Below are positions 15,900 through 37,298 of a stretch of DNA of 64,000 bases, in pieces (positions within the stretch are counted from its first letter, which is position 1; the number at the start of each line of letters is the position of its first letter). Under the pieces are notes generated by a model. The model had not been told where the DNA came from and ran no database searches. It saw nothing but the letters and a program-made list of their open reading frames with translations. Source of the DNA: Cryptosporangium minutisporangium (lineage in GTDB: Bacteria > Actinomycetota > Actinomycetes > Mycobacteriales > Cryptosporangiaceae). The stretch covers positions 140,105 through 204,104 of the forward strand of contig NZ_BAAAYN010000047.1 of the NCBI RefSeq assembly GCF_039536245.1, given 5' to 3'. The translations under genes were made by a program, and so were the position numbers.

Positions 15900-17363
15900 T
15901 CAGCTCACTGCGCTGGTGTCATCCGTGGCCGGGATGGGGCATTCGCGGAGGACGCTCCAGCCGAGCACTCCGGTGACTTGTGTGAGTTTGCTCCCGAGGG
16001 CGACGCCGCGGTCGGCGACGTGGCAAGTGTGCACGCCGTTGTCGTGGCCGCTGTTGCGCATCTTCAGGACGTTGAGGACGCGGCCGATCTGGGCGCAGTG
16101 TTCGATATAGCGGATCTGGACGACGTTGTGGAAGAGAAACATGAGGCCGGCCAGGGGCTCTTCCATCGGCCCGAAGGTTCTGGTCTCGCTGGTGACCCAG
16201 AGGGAAGCCCCGGCGGCGCGGACGATGCCCAGGAGACTGCGTAGATAGGCGGGAAACCGGTCGGCCTCGCGTGCGGCGCGGGCCATCTCGGCCAGGCTGT
16301 CGATCACGATCCGAGTGGTCGTGCCGTCGGCGAGACGGTGACGGATCACCGCCGCCAGGACGTCGAGCTCGAGTCTGCCTACCGGCACGTGGGAAATGAC
16401 CAGGTGGTCGCTGGCTCGAGCGGCTTCGAAGTCCCAGCCGAACCTGCCCGCCATGTCTACCAGTTGGTCGACGGTGTCCTGGAAGGTGATGTAGAGGCAA
16501 CGCTCGCCGCTGGCCAGGCCTTCGGCGACGAAGTTGAGACAGCCGATGGTCTTACCCACGCCGGACGGCCCCAGGACGAGAGTGGCATCAGCGTGCGGTA
16601 TCCCGCCGCCCATCAACGCATCCAGGCCCGGAATCCCCGACGGGACGCGCCGACCCTTGGACGCCGCGCCTTCGGGCAGGAACGACTCGACTCGGGGATA
16701 CACCTGGAGACCGTCAGCAGTGATCTGCACCGTGTGAGCGCCGCTGAGATGGTTGGTGCCCCGCATCTTGACCACCCGTAGGGTGCGCCGGTCGACGGGC
16801 TCGCGGGGCTGGTGCGACAGGTGCACGATGCCGTCGGCGAGGGCGAACTCCACCCCGGTCTGCATCTCCTCGGCGGTGTACTCACCCAGCAGCAGTAGCA
16901 CCGCCCCGCTATGAGCGACCCGGCTGGTCAGGTCGTAGAGCGCCATCCGCAGGGCATGGTCGCTGACGAAGTCCCGCAGCATCTTGGTGCTGTCGATCAC
17001 CACCAGCACCGGCTCGTCCTCGAGGGCCCGGCGGACCACCTCGTCGATCAGCGGTTCGAGGTCATCGGTGCCGCTTCCGCGCAGCATGTCACCCAGGTGC
17101 ACGTACTCGACCTCGCGACCCAGGGTCGCGGGATCGAAGAACGCAAACCCGCGCAGGTGCTCGACTAGTTTGGAATGCGGCTCGGAGAGGGTCGTGTAGT
17201 AGACGGCTTTGCGCTCGACGGTGGCGTTGGCGAAACAGATCTGCTGCGCCAGGATCGTCTTACCCGATCCGGGCGGCCCGGCCAGGACCACCACCGACCC
17301 CGCCAGTAGGCCACCACCGAGGATCAGATCCAGGTCCGCCAACCCGGTCGACAGCCGCGTCAC
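15900..17363 (-). CDS. KaiC-like dual RecA-domain ATPase
   Basis: 487 residues with two KaiC/RadA-type ATPase domains. Walker A is GPPGSGKT at 29-36 in the first and GPSGVGKT at 265-272 in the second; Walker B regions are VLVVIDSTK and RIVIDSLAE. The opening STGLADLDLILGGGL and the inter-domain PSGIPGLDALMGGGI are the classic KaiC domain starts. The paired catalytic glutamates of cyanobacterial KaiC are altered: TLSEPH in the first domain keeps one, and ITFQDT in the second has none. There is no kaiA or kaiB nearby. The GTG start overlaps the stop of the single-domain response regulator by 4 bp, so the two are probably one signalling module. Confidence 0.88.
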   Translation of the reverse strand: MTRLSTGLADLDLILGGGLLAGSVVVLAGPPGSGKTILAQQICFANATVERKAVYYTTLSEPHSKLVEHLRGFAFFDPATLGREVEYVHLGDMLRGSGTDDLEPLIDEVVRRALEDEPVLVVIDSTKMLRDFVSDHALRMALYDLTSRVAHSGAVLLLLGEYTAEEMQTGVEFALADGIVHLSHQPREPVDRRTLRVVKMRGTNHLSGAHTVQITADGLQVYPRVESFLPEGAASKGRRVPSGIPGLDALMGGGIPHADATLVLGPSGVGKTIGCLNFVAEGLASGERCLYITFQDTVDQLVDMAGRFGWDFEAARASDHLVISHVPVGRLELDVLAAVIRHRLADGTTTRIVIDSLAEMARAAREADRFPAYLRSLLGIVRAAGASLWVTSETRTFGPMEEPLAGLMFLFHNVVQIRYIEHCAQIGRVLNVLKMRNSGHDNGVHTCHVADRGVALGSKLTQVTGVLGWSVLRECPIPATDDTSAVS

Positions 17364-17719
17364 TGGCCCTCACGCCCCTTCTGGAGTAGGCCATCGACCG
17401 CTGCGAGTAGCTCGGCGCGCCGGTAAGGCTTCGCCAGCACGGCGTCAGCGTCGGCCGCCAGCTGCCAGTCGCCGCTGACCGCCAGGATCGGAATGGCTGC
17501 GGTCGCTGGGTCGTCGTGCAACCGTCGGATGAGTTCGACGCCGCCCATCACCGGCATCATCATGTCGGTCACCACCAGGTCCGGTGGCGCCTCGTGCACC
17601 GACGCTAGAGCGGTAGCACCGTTCCCCGCCTCAGCGACCTGATGACCAGCCCGCGTGAAGAAGAGCCGCAGGAGGTACCGCAGATCCGGCTCGTCATCGA
17701 CCACCAGGATCATGCCCAT
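17360..17719 (-). CDS. Single-domain response regulator (CheY-like)
   Basis: 119 residues, receiver domain only. The acidic pocket is ILVVDDEPDLRY, the phospho-acceptor lies in VVTDMMMPVMGG, the switch residue is in ILAVSGD, and the conserved lysine is in VLAKPYRRAEL. No output domain follows. It is the promoter-proximal gene of a two-gene unit with the KaiC-like ATPase (GTGA overlap), so the ATPase, or an unlinked kinase, is its likely partner. Confidence 0.9.
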   Translation of the reverse strand: MGMILVVDDEPDLRYLLRLFFTRAGHQVAEAGNGATALASVHEAPPDLVVTDMMMPVMGGVELIRRLHDDPATAAIPILAVSGDWQLAADADAVLAKPYRRAELLAAVDGLLQKGREGQ

Positions 17720-18175
17720 CGAATCCGCCCGTTCGCCACGGCAGAGTCTCCGCGGACTCAGCCCCGACCAGGATAACTACACAAGGCGCCTTAAACGGAT
17801 ATTTCCTCATCGTGACGGCCGGGGATAGAACGGACTTGGGTGTCGTTCGGCGCCCCTCAGACCGCGCCGGATGCCTCGGCTGGGGATCCGGGGGGCGCCG
17901 TGGTTGGGGTCTCGGCTTCGAGCAGATCGCGACGCGGCAGTGCAGCGGCGATCGGAGGGTCCGAATACGACATACGCACCCCGGCTCGGCCCAGTTTGAA
18001 GGCGATGGTCTCGGACAGCGTTCACCCCACCCGGACAGATGCTCGGCGGCTACGGCAAGGAGGTCCGGTATCCCGCGGACATCGGCCCGGCCCTGCGAAG
18101 GGCCCCGAGAGTCTGGATCGCCGAGCCTGATCAGCGTCTGGATCGACCTCGACGTCGATCGTTACCCTCCGAGCC
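17720..18175. other. 456-bp gap between divergent genes
   Basis: I see no credible gene here. Open frames of 70-96 codons exist on both strands but have no ribosome-binding site, start in runs of Arg/Gly/Pro and resemble no family. The AT-rich patch at 17770-17810 probably holds the promoter of the leftward regulator/KaiC unit; the 3' end must hold that of the Hsp70-like gene. Confidence 0.5.
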
Positions 18176-19900
18176 ATGCAACGCCGCGGATCTGTGCTCG
18201 GTATCGACTTCGGAACGGTGAACACGGTCGCGGCGCTCCGCCACGCCGACGGCCGCACCGAGATGTTGGTGTTCAACGGCTCGCCGCTGCTGCCGTCCGC
18301 GGTCCACTTCGGGCCCGCCGGGCAGTTCCTGACCGGCCGGGACGCCCAGCACGCCGCCCAGGTACGGCCTGAGGGCTGCGAACCGCACCCGAAGCGGCGG
18401 ATCGACGACGGCACGGTGGTGCTCGGTGGGCGCGAACTGCCGGTGACCCACCTCGTCGCTGCGGTGCTCGCTCGGGTGATGGACGAGGCGCGGCGGATCG
18501 CCGGAGAGGAGCCCGGCCACGTCGTCCTCACCTACCCCGCGACCTGGCACCAGCCCCGACAGGAGGTGCTGGAGCAGGCGGCGGTGCTCGCCGGGGTCCC
18601 CGTCCCCGTGCTGGTGCCGGCGCCGGTGGCCGCGGCCGCCAGTTTCCTGACGCTGACCCGCATCCCTCTCGACGACGGGCGCGGCGTCGTCGTCTACGAC
18701 GTCGGCAGCGGCACGCTCGATGCCACGGTCGTCCGGCGGACCGCGGGCAGGCTCGCGGTCGCCGCAGCGGAGCACGTCGCCGATCCAGACGGACCGGACA
18801 TCGACCCGACCGTCAGCGCGACGGACACCGCGGTGCGTGCCGCGGGCCTGCCACCGGCCGGGATCGCGGGAATCTTCCTGGTCGGCGACGTGCGCCGGAT
18901 GCCGCTCGCGGCCCCACTGCTACACCAGCGGTTCGGGATCGCGCCGACGGTCGCCGCGAACCCCGAGTTCGTGGTGGCGCAGGGCGCGGTCGCCGTCGAC
19001 CTGCTCAGCCCCACAGCCCCGGGCCCGGAGAACCCGGCCGGGACCCCCGTCCCGGGTCAGGTTCCGCACGCCTACCCGGCGAAGCCGTCCGGGCTGGGCG
19101 CGCCGGGGTTCCGACCACCGTCCTCGCGGAGGACCACCGCCGCCTGGACGGCCGCAGTGCTCGCGGCGACCACCGTGGTGGTGGTCCTGGTGTCCGTCCT
19201 GATCGTGCAGTTCGCCGGCGACGACGGAGGCACAGCCGACGCGGCGGGCACTCCGAGCGCCACCGAAGCCACGACCACTGCGAGGAGCCGTGTCCCGGCG
19301 TCCGGACCCACGAACTGCACCTATCTGGCCGCCGACGACAGCAACGGCAGGGTCAAGGAGGTCGGGCGGCCGCCGGCGACGGACGTCCCGACGACCGGGA
19401 CCCGCACCGCGACGATGGTGACGAGCCTCGGCACGATCGAGTTCACGATCGACCGGACTGCGGCGCCTTGCACCGCCAACAGCTTCGCGTACCTGGCCGG
19501 GAAGCGCTTCTACGACCGTACCTCGTGCCACCGGCTGGTGACGCAGACGATCTATGTGCTGCAGTGCGGAGATCCGTTCGGCGACAGCACCGGCGGCCCG
19601 AGCTACCGGTACGGCACCGAGAACCTCCCCACCGACCGGGAATCGCGGTACCCGGCCGGCACGGTCGCGATGGCGACGACGACGGAGCCGAACTCGGTCG
19701 GCAGCCAGTTCTTCATCGTCTACCAGGGCTTCGACGATGCCTTGCTGGATCCGCTATACACCGTGGTGGGCACGGTCACCAAAGGCCTGGACCTGATCCT
19801 GGAGGCCGCGGAGGCGGGCGTCGTGGAGCCTGGCGCGTTCGGCCCGGGTGACGGCAAGCCCAAGCGTCCCGTGGACGTCACCTCGCTGCGGGTGGCGTAG
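18176..19900 (+). CDS. Hsp70-like ATPase domain / TM / cyclophilin-type peptidyl-prolyl isomerase fusion
   Basis: 574 residues in three parts. Residues 7-275 are an Hsp70 nucleotide-binding fold: phosphate-1 GIDFGTVNTVA (9-19), phosphate-2 VYDVGSGTLDATVV (173-186), adenosine motif IFLVGDVRRMP (233-243). About 100 residues that normally lie between phosphate-2 and adenosine (most of subdomain IIB) are reduced to about 45. Residues 322-346 form a transmembrane helix after a Pro/Gly linker. Residues 405-574 are a cyclophilin: TSLGTIEFTIDR, SCHRLVTQ, LQCGDP, VGSQFFIVY. The topology puts the isomerase outside and the ATPase-like domain inside. No substrate-binding domain is present. It starts at ATG 18176 and is monocistronic. 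Confidence 0.88.
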   Translation: MQRRGSVLGIDFGTVNTVAALRHADGRTEMLVFNGSPLLPSAVHFGPAGQFLTGRDAQHAAQVRPEGCEPHPKRRIDDGTVVLGGRELPVTHLVAAVLARVMDEARRIAGEEPGHVVLTYPATWHQPRQEVLEQAAVLAGVPVPVLVPAPVAAAASFLTLTRIPLDDGRGVVVYDVGSGTLDATVVRRTAGRLAVAAAEHVADPDGPDIDPTVSATDTAVRAAGLPPAGIAGIFLVGDVRRMPLAAPLLHQRFGIAPTVAANPEFVVAQGAVAVDLLSPTAPGPENPAGTPVPGQVPHAYPAKPSGLGAPGFRPPSSRRTTAAWTAAVLAATTVVVVLVSVLIVQFAGDDGGTADAAGTPSATEATTTARSRVPASGPTNCTYLAADDSNGRVKEVGRPPATDVPTTGTRTATMVTSLGTIEFTIDRTAAPCTANSFAYLAGKRFYDRTSCHRLVTQTIYVLQCGDPFGDSTGGPSYRYGTENLPTDRESRYPAGTVAMATTTEPNSVGSQFFIVYQGFDDALLDPLYTVVGTVTKGLDLILEAAEAGVVEPGAFGPGDGKPKRPVDVTSLRVA

Positions 19901-20021
19901 GGAGCAGGCGCCCTTCTCGACCGGGGCGTCGACGGGGGCGTAGGACACGAATCGAACCCCTCGGCATCCGTGACCGTCATAAGCTCACGCGCGACCTCGT
20001 CACCGAGCACTGGAGAGGTTC

Positions 20022-22046
20022 ATGGGCCCGGACGCCGCTCAGCCCGCCGCCGCGCCATCCGACGAGCCGGCCGGGGTACGCGAGCAGCCCTCGGCCGCGC
20101 CGCCGAGCCGGGTCGTGACGGCGGCCGGCGCCCGAGGCCTCGGGGACTTCGACCGGGTCGCCACCGGTACGAACCCGATCGTGAACTTCCTCGGGTTCCT
20201 GGTCTTCGCCGGGCTGCTGTTCGGCGTCGCCTGGGGGCTCTCCTGGATGGGTCGCATGTGGGCGGCCCGGATCGTCGCGATCCTCTGGATCCTGGTGATC
20301 TTCGGCGCGCTGTTCGTCGTCGGGTACGCCTTCCTCCAGCTGCTCAGCGGCTTCCGCGCGGTGTACGTGTTCCGCAACGGCCTGGTCTGGACGCACAACC
20401 GCGACGTCCAGGCCGCGACCTGGACCGAGGTCGACCGCATGGTGACCACGGCCGTGCAGGGCAAGGACCCGCACGAGGCCGTGATCCACCTGCTCGACGG
20501 GCGGCAGACGCGCGTCGAGTTCACCGCCGAGAACGAGGGTGTCCGGGAACAGCTCGCTGAGACGCTCACCCGCTGGCAGCGGCCGGTCGACTTCGAGATC
20601 GCCGGGTTCACGGAGAAGGACGAGGAGCGGCAGGCGTACCGGGGCGCCGCGGCCGTCCTCGGCGTCGCCGGGCTGTTCGCGGCTCTCTTCTTCAGCTTCG
20701 TCACCAACCGGGGCTTCGGGCTGCCGATCGGCTTCTCGCTCGTCGGCGGCTTCCTCACCGTCGCGCTGGTCCTCGCCGGACTGGCGCTGCGGTTCCCGCC
20801 GCTGCGTATCGTCGCCGGGATCTTCGCTGGGATCGCGGGACTGTGCCTGATGGTCGAGGTGAACCGCTGGACCGACGTGCACTTCGTCGTGGTGACCGGC
20901 GCCGTGATCGCGTTCGAGGCCGCGCTGGTCAGCATCTGGCGGACGCTGCACCGGCAGCTGCCCGCTCCCCGCTGGTTCGGACGCCGCCGGAGCTTGGCGA
21001 AGTCCAACGGCTGGCGCTACCTGGACACCGCTGAGATCCCCGTGCCCGGCCCGAAGTCGATCGCGCACCTGATCGGGGTCCCCACCGGCGCCACGACCAC
21101 CACCGGCGAGGGCGTACTCGTCGCCACCGTGAACGGTATCGAGTGCACGGTCTACGACCGGGCGCGCCGGCGTCCGCTGATGGGCGATCCGGTGCTGACG
21201 GTGTGGCAGGTCCCGCTGCCTGCCACGGTGCCCTACGCCACGCTCAAGGAACTCTCGATGCGCGACATCTCGCTCGACGAGCGCGGCGACGTGCACATCT
21301 TCGAGCCGACCCCGCCGACCCGCGCCGCACAAATCCTGGACCGGGTCATCGAGACGATCCCGGCGCAGGTCCACCCCGACTGGTGGATCGAGGGCCGCTA
21401 CCTCTGCCTCGCCGAGAGCGTGGCCCCGTCCGCGACGACGATCGCTCGGCGGGCCAATTACCTGACCTACCTCGCAACCCAAACCCCGTGGCAGCAACTG
21501 GCCGATCCCGCGGTCTGGCAGCCGACCGAGCCGACCCGCTGGGACGACGACTCGGTGTTCGCACCGGCGGTCGTCGAGGCGCTGCGCCTGGCCTGCGAGG
21601 GGCGGTTCCCCGGCAGTGACCTGCACACCGCCGAGACGCTCGGCGCGCTGATCCGGGCCGACCCTTCCGCCGGCTGGGACCGTGTCTGGCAGCTGACCGG
21701 CCCACCGGAGAGCCTCAAGCTCGAGAGCGGGGTCTTCCGCACGATCGACCCCCGCCGTTCCGACAGCGCTCCCCGGCCCGCGTACCGGGGCGACGCCCTG
21801 TTCTCGCCGGAGCTGGCCAGGGCCCTACTGGTGGCCCAGGCGATCCGCGAGCGGTACGGCCTCCTGGTGATCACCACCGGCGTGCTCGCGCTCGGGCTGG
21901 TGGGGTTCCGCGGTGCGGGGGCGACCGAGGCGCTGCTCGCCGGAGGCCGGCTCAGCCACGAGCAGTTACTGGCCGAGGTGCAAGCGGCTCTCCTCGGGAC
22001 GCCCCTCGACGACCTCCGCACGATCGTCCCCGCCGCACCGAACTAG
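20022..22046 (+). CDS. Large multipass membrane protein of unknown function
   Basis: 674 residues, not recognised as a named family. An N-terminal Pro/Ala tail (about 1-45) precedes two helices (NFLGFLVFAGLLFGVAWGL; RIVAILWILVIFGALFVVGY). A PH-like segment follows with the YVFRNGLVWTHNRD pattern typical of small bacterial PH/DUF6585-like domains (about 105-190), then four helices (about 205-315). A soluble half starts RRRSLAKSNGWRYLDT, resembling DUF3137-like domains, and ends with a mixed alpha/beta region. The ATG is 8 bases after GGAGAGG. The deoxyribosyltransferase-like gene follows 5 bp downstream, so they share a transcript. Confidence 0.7.
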   Translation: MGPDAAQPAAAPSDEPAGVREQPSAAPPSRVVTAAGARGLGDFDRVATGTNPIVNFLGFLVFAGLLFGVAWGLSWMGRMWAARIVAILWILVIFGALFVVGYAFLQLLSGFRAVYVFRNGLVWTHNRDVQAATWTEVDRMVTTAVQGKDPHEAVIHLLDGRQTRVEFTAENEGVREQLAETLTRWQRPVDFEIAGFTEKDEERQAYRGAAAVLGVAGLFAALFFSFVTNRGFGLPIGFSLVGGFLTVALVLAGLALRFPPLRIVAGIFAGIAGLCLMVEVNRWTDVHFVVVTGAVIAFEAALVSIWRTLHRQLPAPRWFGRRRSLAKSNGWRYLDTAEIPVPGPKSIAHLIGVPTGATTTTGEGVLVATVNGIECTVYDRARRRPLMGDPVLTVWQVPLPATVPYATLKELSMRDISLDERGDVHIFEPTPPTRAAQILDRVIETIPAQVHPDWWIEGRYLCLAESVAPSATTIARRANYLTYLATQTPWQQLADPAVWQPTEPTRWDDDSVFAPAVVEALRLACEGRFPGSDLHTAETLGALIRADPSAGWDRVWQLTGPPESLKLESGVFRTIDPRRSDSAPRPAYRGDALFSPELARALLVAQAIRERYGLLVITTGVLALGLVGFRGAGATEALLAGGRLSHEQLLAEVQAALLGTPLDDLRTIVPAAPN

Positions 22047-22051
22047 GGCCC

Positions 22052-22495
22052 GTGTCCCGCCCCTACCGGGTGTACTTCGCGCGAGCGGTCGACGAGCTGT
22101 CGCGGCCGGCGGTCCTGGCTCAGGGCGCGACGCTGGCCGCGCGTCTGCGGCCGCTCGGCGCGGAGCTGGTCGATCCGGTCGCCGTCTGGGATCTGAGTCC
22201 GCTCGATCCCTCGCCGGGCGATCTCGTGGCCTCGGATCTCCGCACGCTGCGCACCTGCGACGCAGTCCTGATGGACATGACGATCCCGAACCGCAACTAC
22301 ATCGGTTGCGTCTGCGAGCTGACTTACGCGTACCTCTGGGAGATCCCGTCCGTTGTCTGGGTCGGCGACACCGGGTACGAACGACGACCGTGGCTGCGCT
22401 TCCACGCCACTGCAATCGTCCCGGACGAACACCGAGCGGTACAGGAGCTTGGCACGCTACTGCGGTCAGGTCGGCGGCCCCCGCCGACCCAGTAG
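22052..22495 (+). CDS. Nucleoside 2-deoxyribosyltransferase-like protein
   Basis: 147 residues. The opening YRVYFARAVDEL and the segment MDMTIPNRNYIGCVCELTYAY match the N-deoxyribosyltransferase superfamily, in which the glutamate of the CELTYA segment is the covalent nucleophile and the Asp/Asn before it bind the base. The family exchanges bases on deoxynucleosides, or hydrolyses nucleotides (DNPH1/RCL, MilB types). The GTG start lies 5 bp after the membrane protein's stop; the 3' end overlaps the convergent toroid gene by 30 bp. The substrate is unknown. Confidence 0.78.
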   Translation: MSRPYRVYFARAVDELSRPAVLAQGATLAARLRPLGAELVDPVAVWDLSPLDPSPGDLVASDLRTLRTCDAVLMDMTIPNRNYIGCVCELTYAYLWEIPSVVWVGDTGYERRPWLRFHATAIVPDEHRAVQELGTLLRSGRRPPPTQ

Positions 22496-23782
22496 CAGTT
22501 GAACGAAGAGCAGAAGCACCGGAAAGATCATGCTGAGCGCGTACTCGTGCCAGGCCAACCGCCCGAGCCAGACCAAGGCACCGCCGAGCAGCACTACGAC
22601 GCCGAGCAGTCCGACGGCCCATCGCCGCGCCAACCACCGGGCTCCGTCACCGATCGCTGCCCGGGCGAGCACCGCCGTGGCCGGCCGGTTCCGTCCTCGC
22701 TGCAGCAACACCGTGCTCGGAGACAGAACGCGCAGCACGTCCGTCGACCCGCCGGGGACGAGTCGGCGGACGTCCGCGAGCGCCTCGAGGAACGGCCACA
22801 CGGTCCACATCGACCGGCTCGCGACGCTGTCCCCGCCGGGCCACCGTCCGTCCAGGCTTTGGGTGGCGAGGATCGTCCGAACACTCTGCACGACGAGATC
22901 GAGCCGCACCCCGTCCGGCGCGCGGGTCAGCGCGGAGAGTGCATACGGAAGACCGGGATGCCACACCGTGCTCTGCCAGGTGAAACCCTTGACGTTGTCC
23001 TCCGCCAGCGACACGTTGTACTCCTCAGTCCTCGCGTCCTCGTCGTGGATGCGGCCAGTCTTCACGTTCCCGGCGAGCCAGGCGTATCCCGCCGCGAGTG
23101 CGTCGGTCACGTCCTCGCGCCGGCGCCGCAGCTGCAGGTCGGCGAGGGTCGTGAGCACGATCGCGGTATGGGTCACGGTCGGTGGTCCACCCGGCACCTC
23201 GCCCCACGCCCGGGCCCGGAGATCACGGCTCTGGAGCAACCACTCGACGCCGGACCGCACACCTGGGTCGAACGGCTCCGCAACCGTCAAGGCGCGGATC
23301 GCCATGGCCGTCAGCCAGATCCGGGAGGACTGCCCCCGGAACGATCCCCAGCCGCCGTCAGCGTTCTGATTGAAGAGCAGCCAGCGACCGGCACGGCGAA
23401 GGTCCGGACCGTCGGCCGCGAACGCGAGACCGGCCCGGTGCAGCAGCCACGTCACCAGGGCCGTCGCCTCAGTCACCGGTCGGCCGACGCTGGTGTTCAC
23501 CGCCCAGCCGCGGTCGAGCGTCGGATCTGCGGCCGTGATCTGACGTTCGCGGAGGAACGCGAGCGCAGCCGGGAGGGGGTCGAAGTCTCGCCCGAACACG
23601 AGGAAGGCGGCGAGCCCGGCTGCGGTCGCGGACGGTCCCGGCTGATCGGCGTCGAGCCGGTGATACCAACCGGCACTTCCTGGGCTGCTCCGGTACGTGT
23701 GCCGCAGCAGCCCGAGCGCGCGCTCCACGCAGGCGTCGACCTCGCCGAAGTCGAGAGTGGGTAAGCCTCCGCGATCACTCAC
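22466..23782 (-). CDS. Terpene-cyclase/prenyltransferase-like alpha-toroid with C-terminal membrane anchor
   Basis: 438 residues. Repeated helical pairs with QW-like motifs (NADGGWGSFRGQ near 143; SLDGRWPGGD near 317) indicate the alpha/alpha toroid of squalene-hopene cyclases and prenyltransferases, but the class II catalytic DxDD motif is absent and the size is about two-thirds of a full cyclase. Two C-terminal transmembrane helices (WAVGLLGVVVLLGGALVWLG; ALSMIFPVLLLFVQLLLG) would anchor it. The GTG start lies 37 bp after the methyltransferase stop, with AGGAG upstream. It is the last gene of a HIT-methyltransferase-toroid operon. A binding or scaffold role, or a non-canonical cyclase, is possible. 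Confidence 0.75.
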   Translation of the reverse strand: MSDRGGLPTLDFGEVDACVERALGLLRHTYRSSPGSAGWYHRLDADQPGPSATAAGLAAFLVFGRDFDPLPAALAFLRERQITAADPTLDRGWAVNTSVGRPVTEATALVTWLLHRAGLAFAADGPDLRRAGRWLLFNQNADGGWGSFRGQSSRIWLTAMAIRALTVAEPFDPGVRSGVEWLLQSRDLRARAWGEVPGGPPTVTHTAIVLTTLADLQLRRRREDVTDALAAGYAWLAGNVKTGRIHDEDARTEEYNVSLAEDNVKGFTWQSTVWHPGLPYALSALTRAPDGVRLDLVVQSVRTILATQSLDGRWPGGDSVASRSMWTVWPFLEALADVRRLVPGGSTDVLRVLSPSTVLLQRGRNRPATAVLARAAIGDGARWLARRWAVGLLGVVVLLGGALVWLGRLAWHEYALSMIFPVLLLFVQLLLGRRGPPT

Positions 23783-35642: not shown

Positions 35643-37115
35643 TCACAGGAGCAGCACGACCATCGCCGCGATCAGGACCACGACCATCCCGCCCAGGGCC
35701 AGCAGCCAGCCGAAACGGTGCCAGACGACCTCGAGGCGGGCCGACGGTTCGGTGGGGTCACGGTGGGCCGGGCCGATCCCGGGACGACGGAACACCGAGA
35801 CGCTCCCGGGCCGGCGGCGGACCGGAAGCCCACCGTCCGGACGGCGGGGTCCGGGTAACGCCGTCCGCCGCGGCGGCCCGGTGATCGCCCCTTTCGGACG
35901 CCGGACGAACCGGACGGCCACCTGCACCCCGGCCAGAACCGCCGCGGCGGCGGGCCGGCGCTGCGTCGGCACCACGATCGGCGGCCGCGCTGCGCCGGTG
36001 ACCGGCTCGATACCGGGCGGAAGCGCGACGTCCGCCGCGAGCTGACCGAGCGCGCCACCGACGACCGCGAACGCCGGCTGCTCCACTCGCACCGGCTCGA
36101 TCCCGAGCGCCTCGTGCAAGGCCGGCGCCAGCGTCGGTAACGGCGCCGAACCGCCGACCAGCACCACGGCGTCCAATTCGGACGGGCGGATCCCGACCTC
36201 ACGCAGCACCCGCGCGGTCACCCGGACGACACGGTCGGCCAGCGGCCGGGAGTAGCGCTCCAGGTCGCTCCGGGTCAGCGGAGAATCCGCCAGCCCCGGC
36301 ACGGCGACCGGTACCGACTCCGCCAGCCCCAGCGCGCTCTTCGCCGCCCCCACCTCCGCCCAGAACGCCCGCTGCACCCGACGATCGTCGGCGGTACGGG
36401 GACGGTCGATCGCGCGCCAGATCTCCCGTCGCTGCCGCCCCGCGGTGGCGGCGAGGTGGGCGGCGATCGCGGCGTCGACCCGCCGGCCGCCGATCGTCGG
36501 GTCACCGCCGATCGCCACGACCGCGAACCGCTCCGGCTCGCGGCGCACCACCGAGACGTCGAACCGCCGGGCACCGACGTCGACGACGACGAGACGGCCC
36601 CCGACCGCCCCCGGTATCCCGGCGCCGACCGCGGCCGCGACCGGCTCGGTGACCAGGGTGACCGCGGCGAAGCCGGCGTGGCCGGCAGCACGCCGGTACG
36701 TGTCCTGCTCCGCCGGCGTCCACGTCACCGGGTGCGTCAGGACGGCCGGCGGTACGGTCCCGATCGTTGCGGTGGCCGCCTCCGCCACGGCGGCGAGGAC
36801 GGCGGCCAGCAGGTCGGTCGGGGTGGTGTCGCGCACGCCGAGCCGGAACTTCTGCTCGCCGATGTGGCGGCGGGGCGTGGGCTCGAAGTGGTCCGGATCG
36901 TCGGCGGCGCGGCGCTCGGCGTCCCGGCCGACGCGGACGATCCCGTCCGCGTCGAGCAGTACGCCGGACGGCAGGACGGGCTCGCCGTCGAAGAGCAACG
37001 GCGCCGTACGACCGTCCGGCCGCCGGACCAGCGCGACCGTGTTCGTCAGTCCGAGGTCGACGCCGAGCAGGTGGTCACCGCCGGCAGCGGCCGGATCACT
37101 GGTAGGGCCTGGCAC
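35643..37115 (-). CDS. Tail-anchored Hsp70-like protein with degenerate ATPase motif
   Basis: 490 residues from GTG 37115 (GGGAG 8 bases upstream). Phosphate-1 is LLGVDLGLTNTVAL (16-29), but phosphate-2, normally DxGGGTxD, reads VVDVGARRFDVSVV (177-190). Subdomain IIB is present in full (residues about 205-310), and the adenosine motif is VVLVGGSAPLPTL (317-329). After residue 370 there is no substrate-binding domain but an Arg/Pro-rich stretch and a single C-terminal transmembrane helix (FGWLLALGGMVVVLIAAMVV). The protein would face the cytosol. Loss of the GGGT glycines suggests weak or absent ATP hydrolysis. Confidence 0.82.
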   Translation of the reverse strand: MPGPTSDPAAAGGDHLLGVDLGLTNTVALVRRPDGRTAPLLFDGEPVLPSGVLLDADGIVRVGRDAERRAADDPDHFEPTPRRHIGEQKFRLGVRDTTPTDLLAAVLAAVAEAATATIGTVPPAVLTHPVTWTPAEQDTYRRAAGHAGFAAVTLVTEPVAAAVGAGIPGAVGGRLVVVDVGARRFDVSVVRREPERFAVVAIGGDPTIGGRRVDAAIAAHLAATAGRQRREIWRAIDRPRTADDRRVQRAFWAEVGAAKSALGLAESVPVAVPGLADSPLTRSDLERYSRPLADRVVRVTARVLREVGIRPSELDAVVLVGGSAPLPTLAPALHEALGIEPVRVEQPAFAVVGGALGQLAADVALPPGIEPVTGAARPPIVVPTQRRPAAAAVLAGVQVAVRFVRRPKGAITGPPRRTALPGPRRPDGGLPVRRRPGSVSVFRRPGIGPAHRDPTEPSARLEVVWHRFGWLLALGGMVVVLIAAMVVLLL

Positions 37116-37298
37116 GCGCGCGCTCCCGGGGGTGTGACGTCGACACCCCAGTGTCCCGCGCCGACGGCGGGCACTGGGCCCGGGACGGGACACCGAACCT
37201 CACCGGTTCGCTGACCGGCCAAACAACCACCATTGACCGAAATCCGTCATACATGGGTAATCTGCGCGAGAAGAGTTCTCGGCACACGGAGGTGGCGG

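Follow-up and report, generated by a model that had tools for sequence, protein, structure and literature searches.

In the Hsp70 protein DnaK, Glu171 has a role in catalysis (PMC5240922), and subdomain IIB of the nucleotide-binding domain (NBD) contributes to the nucleotide pocket and is the place where every known exchange factor docks, an outward shift of IIB strongly reducing nucleotide affinity (PMC4753570). Among prolyl isomerases, exported cyclophilins include PpiB (Rv2582) of Mycobacterium tuberculosis and SCO1510 of Streptomyces coelicolor (PMC12757957). These actinobacterial PpiB proteins combine a transmembrane (TM) anchor, a Thr/Ser-rich stalk, conserved cysteines, and an HR...LQCGDP...SQFF core, and their cytosolic tail is normally short and charged. 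The genus considered here additionally encodes membrane-bound Hsp70-like proteins (NBD-TM-Peripla_BP_6 and NBD-TM-WD40; for example, L040, L056, and L044) in which an NBD is followed by a Pro-rich linker, a TM helix, and an outside domain. In the literature searched, we found no functional study of intact actinobacterial proteins with an NBD inside and a ligand-binding or propeller domain outside, and these NBD-TM-sensor proteins form a receptor-like family that has apparently yet to be studied.

The window analyzed here, a stretch of 64,000 nucleotides from Cryptosporangium minutisporangium, contains a gene whose product joins elements of both kinds (Table 1; the protein carries the query name P0001, and the genome of the window is G000). 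The fusion is read directly from an open frame of 574 codons without stop or frameshift, with third-position GC of 0.89-0.92 in each of three sections and with Pfam matches far beyond the cut-off to HSP70 (E 3.8e-18) and to Pro_isomerase (PF00160; E 1.3e-23, residues 413-572). The HSP70 match is restricted to the NBD; the C-terminal substrate-binding domain is absent and is replaced by the only strong hydrophobic segment of the protein and the cyclophilin. Open frame, Pfam domains, and hydropathy thus agree with a sequence-only reading of this DNA, which had proposed an Hsp70-like ATPase fused through a TM helix to an outside cyclophilin. The protein has the layout of the NBD-TM-sensor proteins of the genus, namely, NBD, Pro-rich linker, one TM helix, and predicted extracytoplasmic domain. 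Unlike it, those proteins have their own IIB, intact nucleotide motifs, and another outside domain, and unlike normal PpiB proteins it carries an NBD remnant in place of the short cytosolic tail.

Table 1. Features of the fusion gene and its flanks, in window coordinates
Feature	Position	Strand	Basis
Whole gene: NBD (without IIB), linker, TM helix, cyclophilin; 574 aa	18176..19900	+	Open frame; Pfam HSP70 and Pro_isomerase; coding-type GC3 throughout
Hsp70-type NBD, residues 6-272, without subdomain IIB	18191..18991	+	Pfam, phmmer, alignment; AF2 pLDDT 75.7, pTM 0.76, Z 22
Phosphate-1 motif GIDFGTVNT (relatives mostly GIDFGTSNT)	18200..18226	+	Alignment
Codon of Ala149, which aligns with catalytic Glu171 of DnaK; Glu invariant in all relatives compared	18620..18622	+	Alignment
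Phosphate-2 motif YDVGSGTLD (relatives mostly YDLGGGTFD/YDLGAGTFD)	18695..18721	+	Alignment
Deletion junction ATCGAC/CCGACC, after Asp210; 81 IIB residues missing	18800..18811	+	Alignment; paralogue DNA
Adenosine motif LVGDVRRMP (relatives LVGGSSRIP)	18878..18904	+	Alignment
TM helix, residues 326-344, after Arg-Arg; N-in/C-out expected	19151..19207	+	Hydropathy 2.87; model helix 317-340; aligned with TM of TM-cyclophilins
PpiB-type cyclophilin, predicted to be extracytoplasmic (residues 377-573); has the four Cys that exported relatives conserve	19304..19894	+	Pfam, alignment
Remnant, 3' end of oxalyl-CoA decarboxylase-like gene	18036..18154	+	80-82% DNA identity to L089 5829-5946, L090, L091; 5' flank common to G001, G002, G003
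Remnant, 3' end of GntR-type regulator gene	19906..19929	-	23/24 nt match; 3' flank common to G001 locus

The same reading had described IIB as shrunken. The loss is real, but this understates it, as IIB is wholly absent. In phmmer, residues 7-74, 83-211, and 216-272 align to DnaK 4-70, 102-226, and 314-370, skipping DnaK 227-313, which by the established numbering we take to be subdomain IIB. In an alignment with 16 related NBDs (from the genome of the window, from congeners, and from a single genome outside the family), the match breaks off after 'DID' (residue 210) and is picked up again at 'PTVSATDTAVRAAGL', so that exactly 81 residues are missing relative to the closest paralogue, L040 of the same genome (58% identity), and IIB is kept in all 16 relatives. 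The pentamer TCGAC stands in frame at both breakpoints in the DNA of L040, and, with that paralogue standing in for the ancestor, we suggest that the loss is compatible with a microhomology deletion between two TCGAC copies. An AF2 model of the NBD alone, computed from a very shallow alignment of two window proteins, reached pLDDT 75.7 and pTM 0.76 and aligns to Hsp70 NBDs over 254-270 residues (Z 20-22; 4.1-4.7 Å over about 263 residues). It is moderate evidence that an Hsp70-type actin-like fold survives the loss of IIB, and an Hsp70 fold is what the sequence-only reading expected a model to return. The genome encodes about ten related Hsp70-NBD proteins with IIB (L040-L049 and L005), most continuing into a TM helix and Peripla_BP_6, WD40, multi-TM, or unclassified domains.

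When the locus is placed beside those of congeners, additional insight into the age of fusion and deletion is gained. Both flanks of the gene match G001 (80% for the decarboxylase gene end, 23/24 for the GntR gene end), in which a query across the IIB junction had brought up a short frame on L089. Read along the minus strand of L089, the 3' end of the decarboxylase gene comes first; it is followed by NBD pieces that lie in different frames, then by a linker rich in Pro and a TM helix, after which the sequence reaches a stop. These NBD pieces retain PEPVAAA (with the Glu), the IIB region, and LVGGSSRIP. A short cyclophilin remnant is found between the TM helix and the GntR gene: over 28 nt, 24 positions agree with the cyclophilin gene (YTVVG.VT), a match equalled once in 2000 random and once in 3000 genomic controls. 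The TM helix of the G001 copy alone cannot separate a periplasmic-binding-protein type from a cyclophilin type, and a tree of the fragment does not recover it as the sister of P0001, so the case for orthology is carried by the flanks. By its position and broken frames, the G001 locus is a decayed counterpart, a pseudogene, of the window gene, and it is probably the same fusion with IIB still in place. As that copy has IIB, TM helix, and cyclophilin remnant between the same flanks, it would follow that the fusion predates the split of G000 and G001 and that IIB was lost later in the lineage of the window. At the same position, an unrelated 327-aa gene stands in G002, and G003 is without P0001-like sequence; at least one loss of the gene has occurred. 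The oxalyl-CoA decarboxylase-like gene is intact beside the locus in congeners, and in the window the oxalate locus is broken or moved.

These comparisons also bear on an assembly artefact, a collapse that took out IIB and joined two genes. The genome is a draft of 152 contigs and IIB is missing here only, as such a collapse might produce. We nevertheless give this explanation hardly any credence: the junction is in frame and domain exact, the halves are only 58% and 61% identical to the other copies in the genome, which leaves no repeat to collapse, and G001 independently has NBD, TM helix, and cyclophilin remnant between the same flanks.

Searches for the arrangement elsewhere found a match over both halves of P0001 in its own genome only, in overlapping samples of the order (249 genomes), the class (296), and the phylum (296), so that the domain order sought in other genomes did not recur in these samples. 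A query spanning the IIB junction retrieved no IIB-less relative among the matches listed from 200 genomes of the order, and one further scan of genome contigs for the same domain order returned only a stand-alone cyclophilin. Viral contigs yielded no relative of the fusion; matches among viral structures were set aside as ordinary Hsp70 homologues. The deletion is thus found here only, with IIB present in paralogues and the G001 copy, a strain-specific deletion among full-length homologues being the outcome that the sequence-only reading had named as counting against it. That reading had not seen such an arrangement described, and the literature searched gave nothing specific on Hsp70-cyclophilin or NBD-TM-sensor fusions, but the protein is not isolated, since its genome encodes several NBD-TM proteins with other outside domains. 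A paper on conflict systems mentions Hsp70-only proteins in another context.

The nucleotide site has changed as well. The phosphate-1 (residues 9-17), phosphate-2 (174-182), and adenosine (235-243) motifs, through which the NBD still resembles PF00012, are all recognizable, as first read, but phosphate-1 and adenosine are altered and the gap between the last two is 52 residues rather than about 45. Among 51 columns outside IIB that are unchanging in the 16 relatives, the window NBD is altered at 7: the Glu171 equivalent (to Ala), two adenosine-loop residues (GGSSR to GDVRR, with GG to GD and S to V), the phosphate-2 Phe, a pair of glycines that precede the deletion, and one Asp. In a leave-one-out control, each relative differs at 0-4 such columns, none of them at the Glu or in the adenosine loop, and the catalytic Glu and GGS are kept in 16/16. 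Judging from these residues, the NBD probably no longer works as an ATPase and has lost its cycling, and we infer that ATP binding and turnover are gone. Weak nucleotide binding is nonetheless possible because the equivalents of Asp8, Lys70 (here Lys73), Asp194, and Thr199 are retained. An ATP-sensing domain inside the cell, as had been proposed from the sequence, is unlikely in view of the missing IIB, the Glu171-to-Ala change, and the altered adenosine loop. It is possible that the NBD retains some use, given the intact 574-codon frame and the folding model.

Such a use could go as far as a neofunctionalized sensor, in line with the sequence-only reading: selection would have kept the NBD without IIB as a switch that binds nucleotide or protein independently of exchange factors and links cytosolic state to the outside cyclophilin. 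The intact frame, the confident Hsp70-like model without IIB, the four retained contact residues, and the receptor-like NBD-TM-sensor layout of paralogues with intact NBDs would all suit this reading. We consider it unlikely, however, as the catalytic Glu and the adenosine loop were lost along with IIB, the genomes sampled hold no conserved IIB-less relatives, and the G001 orthologue is a pseudogene. More improbable still is the specific form in which a selected ATP-independent or exchange-factor-free cytosolic switch controls or positions the outside prolyl isomerase; were it true, a minimal Hsp70 core would have been turned into a transmembrane signaling module.

The cyclophilin half presents a different picture. 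The full-length AF2 model is poor beyond the NBD (mean pLDDT 48), and this half was therefore assessed by sequence. All 35 invariant columns of PpiB-type TM-cyclophilins are kept, as are all four cysteines, and the contrast between 7/51 changed columns in the NBD and 0/35 here gives a one-sided Fisher p of 0.02. With the actinobacterial PpiB proteins, the window protein has in common the TM anchor, the stalk rich in Thr/Ser, the conserved cysteines, and the HR...LQCGDP...SQFF core. The core motifs noticed at first reading are therefore borne out, and on this conservation the half looks functional as a prolyl isomerase. The single TM helix, Arg-Arg on its N side, and the conserved cysteines suggest that it lies outside the membrane.

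Phylogeny places the window NBD within the NBDs of the NBD-TM-Peripla_BP_6 proteins of the genus (support 99/98), in the same lineage as its membrane-bound Hsp70-like proteins, on a long branch (0.66 versus 0.06-0.28 for NBDs of this type). The cyclophilin half is sister to the ordinary TM-cyclophilins of the genus (support 94/85), also on a long branch, and the genome has an ordinary TM-cyclophilin as well (L047), 83-85% identical to the copies of congeners versus 61% for the fused one. NG86 dN/dS is 0.44-0.66 for pairs with P0001 versus 0.18-0.46 among relatives and below 1 for both halves; these values point to relaxed, not absent, constraint, with the caveats that NG86 is unreliable at extreme GC3 and that the P0001 pairs include the relatives' own branches.

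It is accordingly conceivable, though in our view rather unlikely, that the whole gene is being lost and is now a relic, whether expressed or silent, with neither half under effective selection. Long branches of both halves and a dN/dS above that among relatives would fit a relic, as would the dead G001 copy, the other gene at the G002 locus, the lack of P0001-like sequence at that of G003, and the normal TM-cyclophilin in the same genome. The 35/35 cyclophilin invariants with all four cysteines, the 574 codons without stop or frameshift, and the coding-type GC3 speak against it. The open frame says little in either direction, because in a neutral simulation the chance of no stop was 0.31-0.48 per half; we dropped it as proof of selection.

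The likely explanation, in our judgment, is a lineage-specific chimera: an exported prolyl isomerase tethered to the membrane, whose cytosolic NBD is vestigial. In an ancestor shared with at least the congener G001, a fusion would have brought together an NBD, taken from a membrane-bound Hsp70-like receptor protein of the NBD-TM-periplasmic-binding-protein subgroup, and a duplicated copy of the TM-anchored, exported PpiB-type cyclophilin of the genus. In the lineage of the window, an in-frame deletion, possibly between the two TCGAC microhomologies, would then have taken out IIB, and key nucleotide-site residues would have been altered. The surviving protein would most likely be a membrane-tethered prolyl isomerase or holdase outside the cell, its NBD remnant folded but without ATPase cycling and probably just an N-terminal anchor or passive interaction surface.

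What is new here is the domain combination and the deletion, the components being of known kind. As a mechanism the fusion is probably minor, with an ATPase half that looks dismantled and a gene confined to one genome; the more promising lead is the intact NBD-TM-sensor family. The locus does offer a clean natural case in which exactly one subdomain was deleted from an Hsp70 NBD; a congener copy at the same position represents the prior state.

Other genes of the window may be mentioned. A second Hsp70-like protein (35643-37193, minus strand; 516 aa) has a C-terminal TM helix and IIB, with a degenerate phosphate-2 motif (DVGARRFD) and a very long branch, and is another eroded NBD. Upstream of the fusion, a two-domain KaiC-like ATPase (15900-17719, minus strand) adjoins a single-domain response regulator; in G002 the pair is found elsewhere, at 84% and 80% identity. 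Downstream, 20022-22046 (plus strand) encodes a 674-aa protein with a weak DUF6585 match, an orthologue in G003 (55-56%), and a mere trace in G002, and 22466-23782 (minus strand) encodes a 438-aa squalene-hopene-cyclase-like repeat protein within a variable region.
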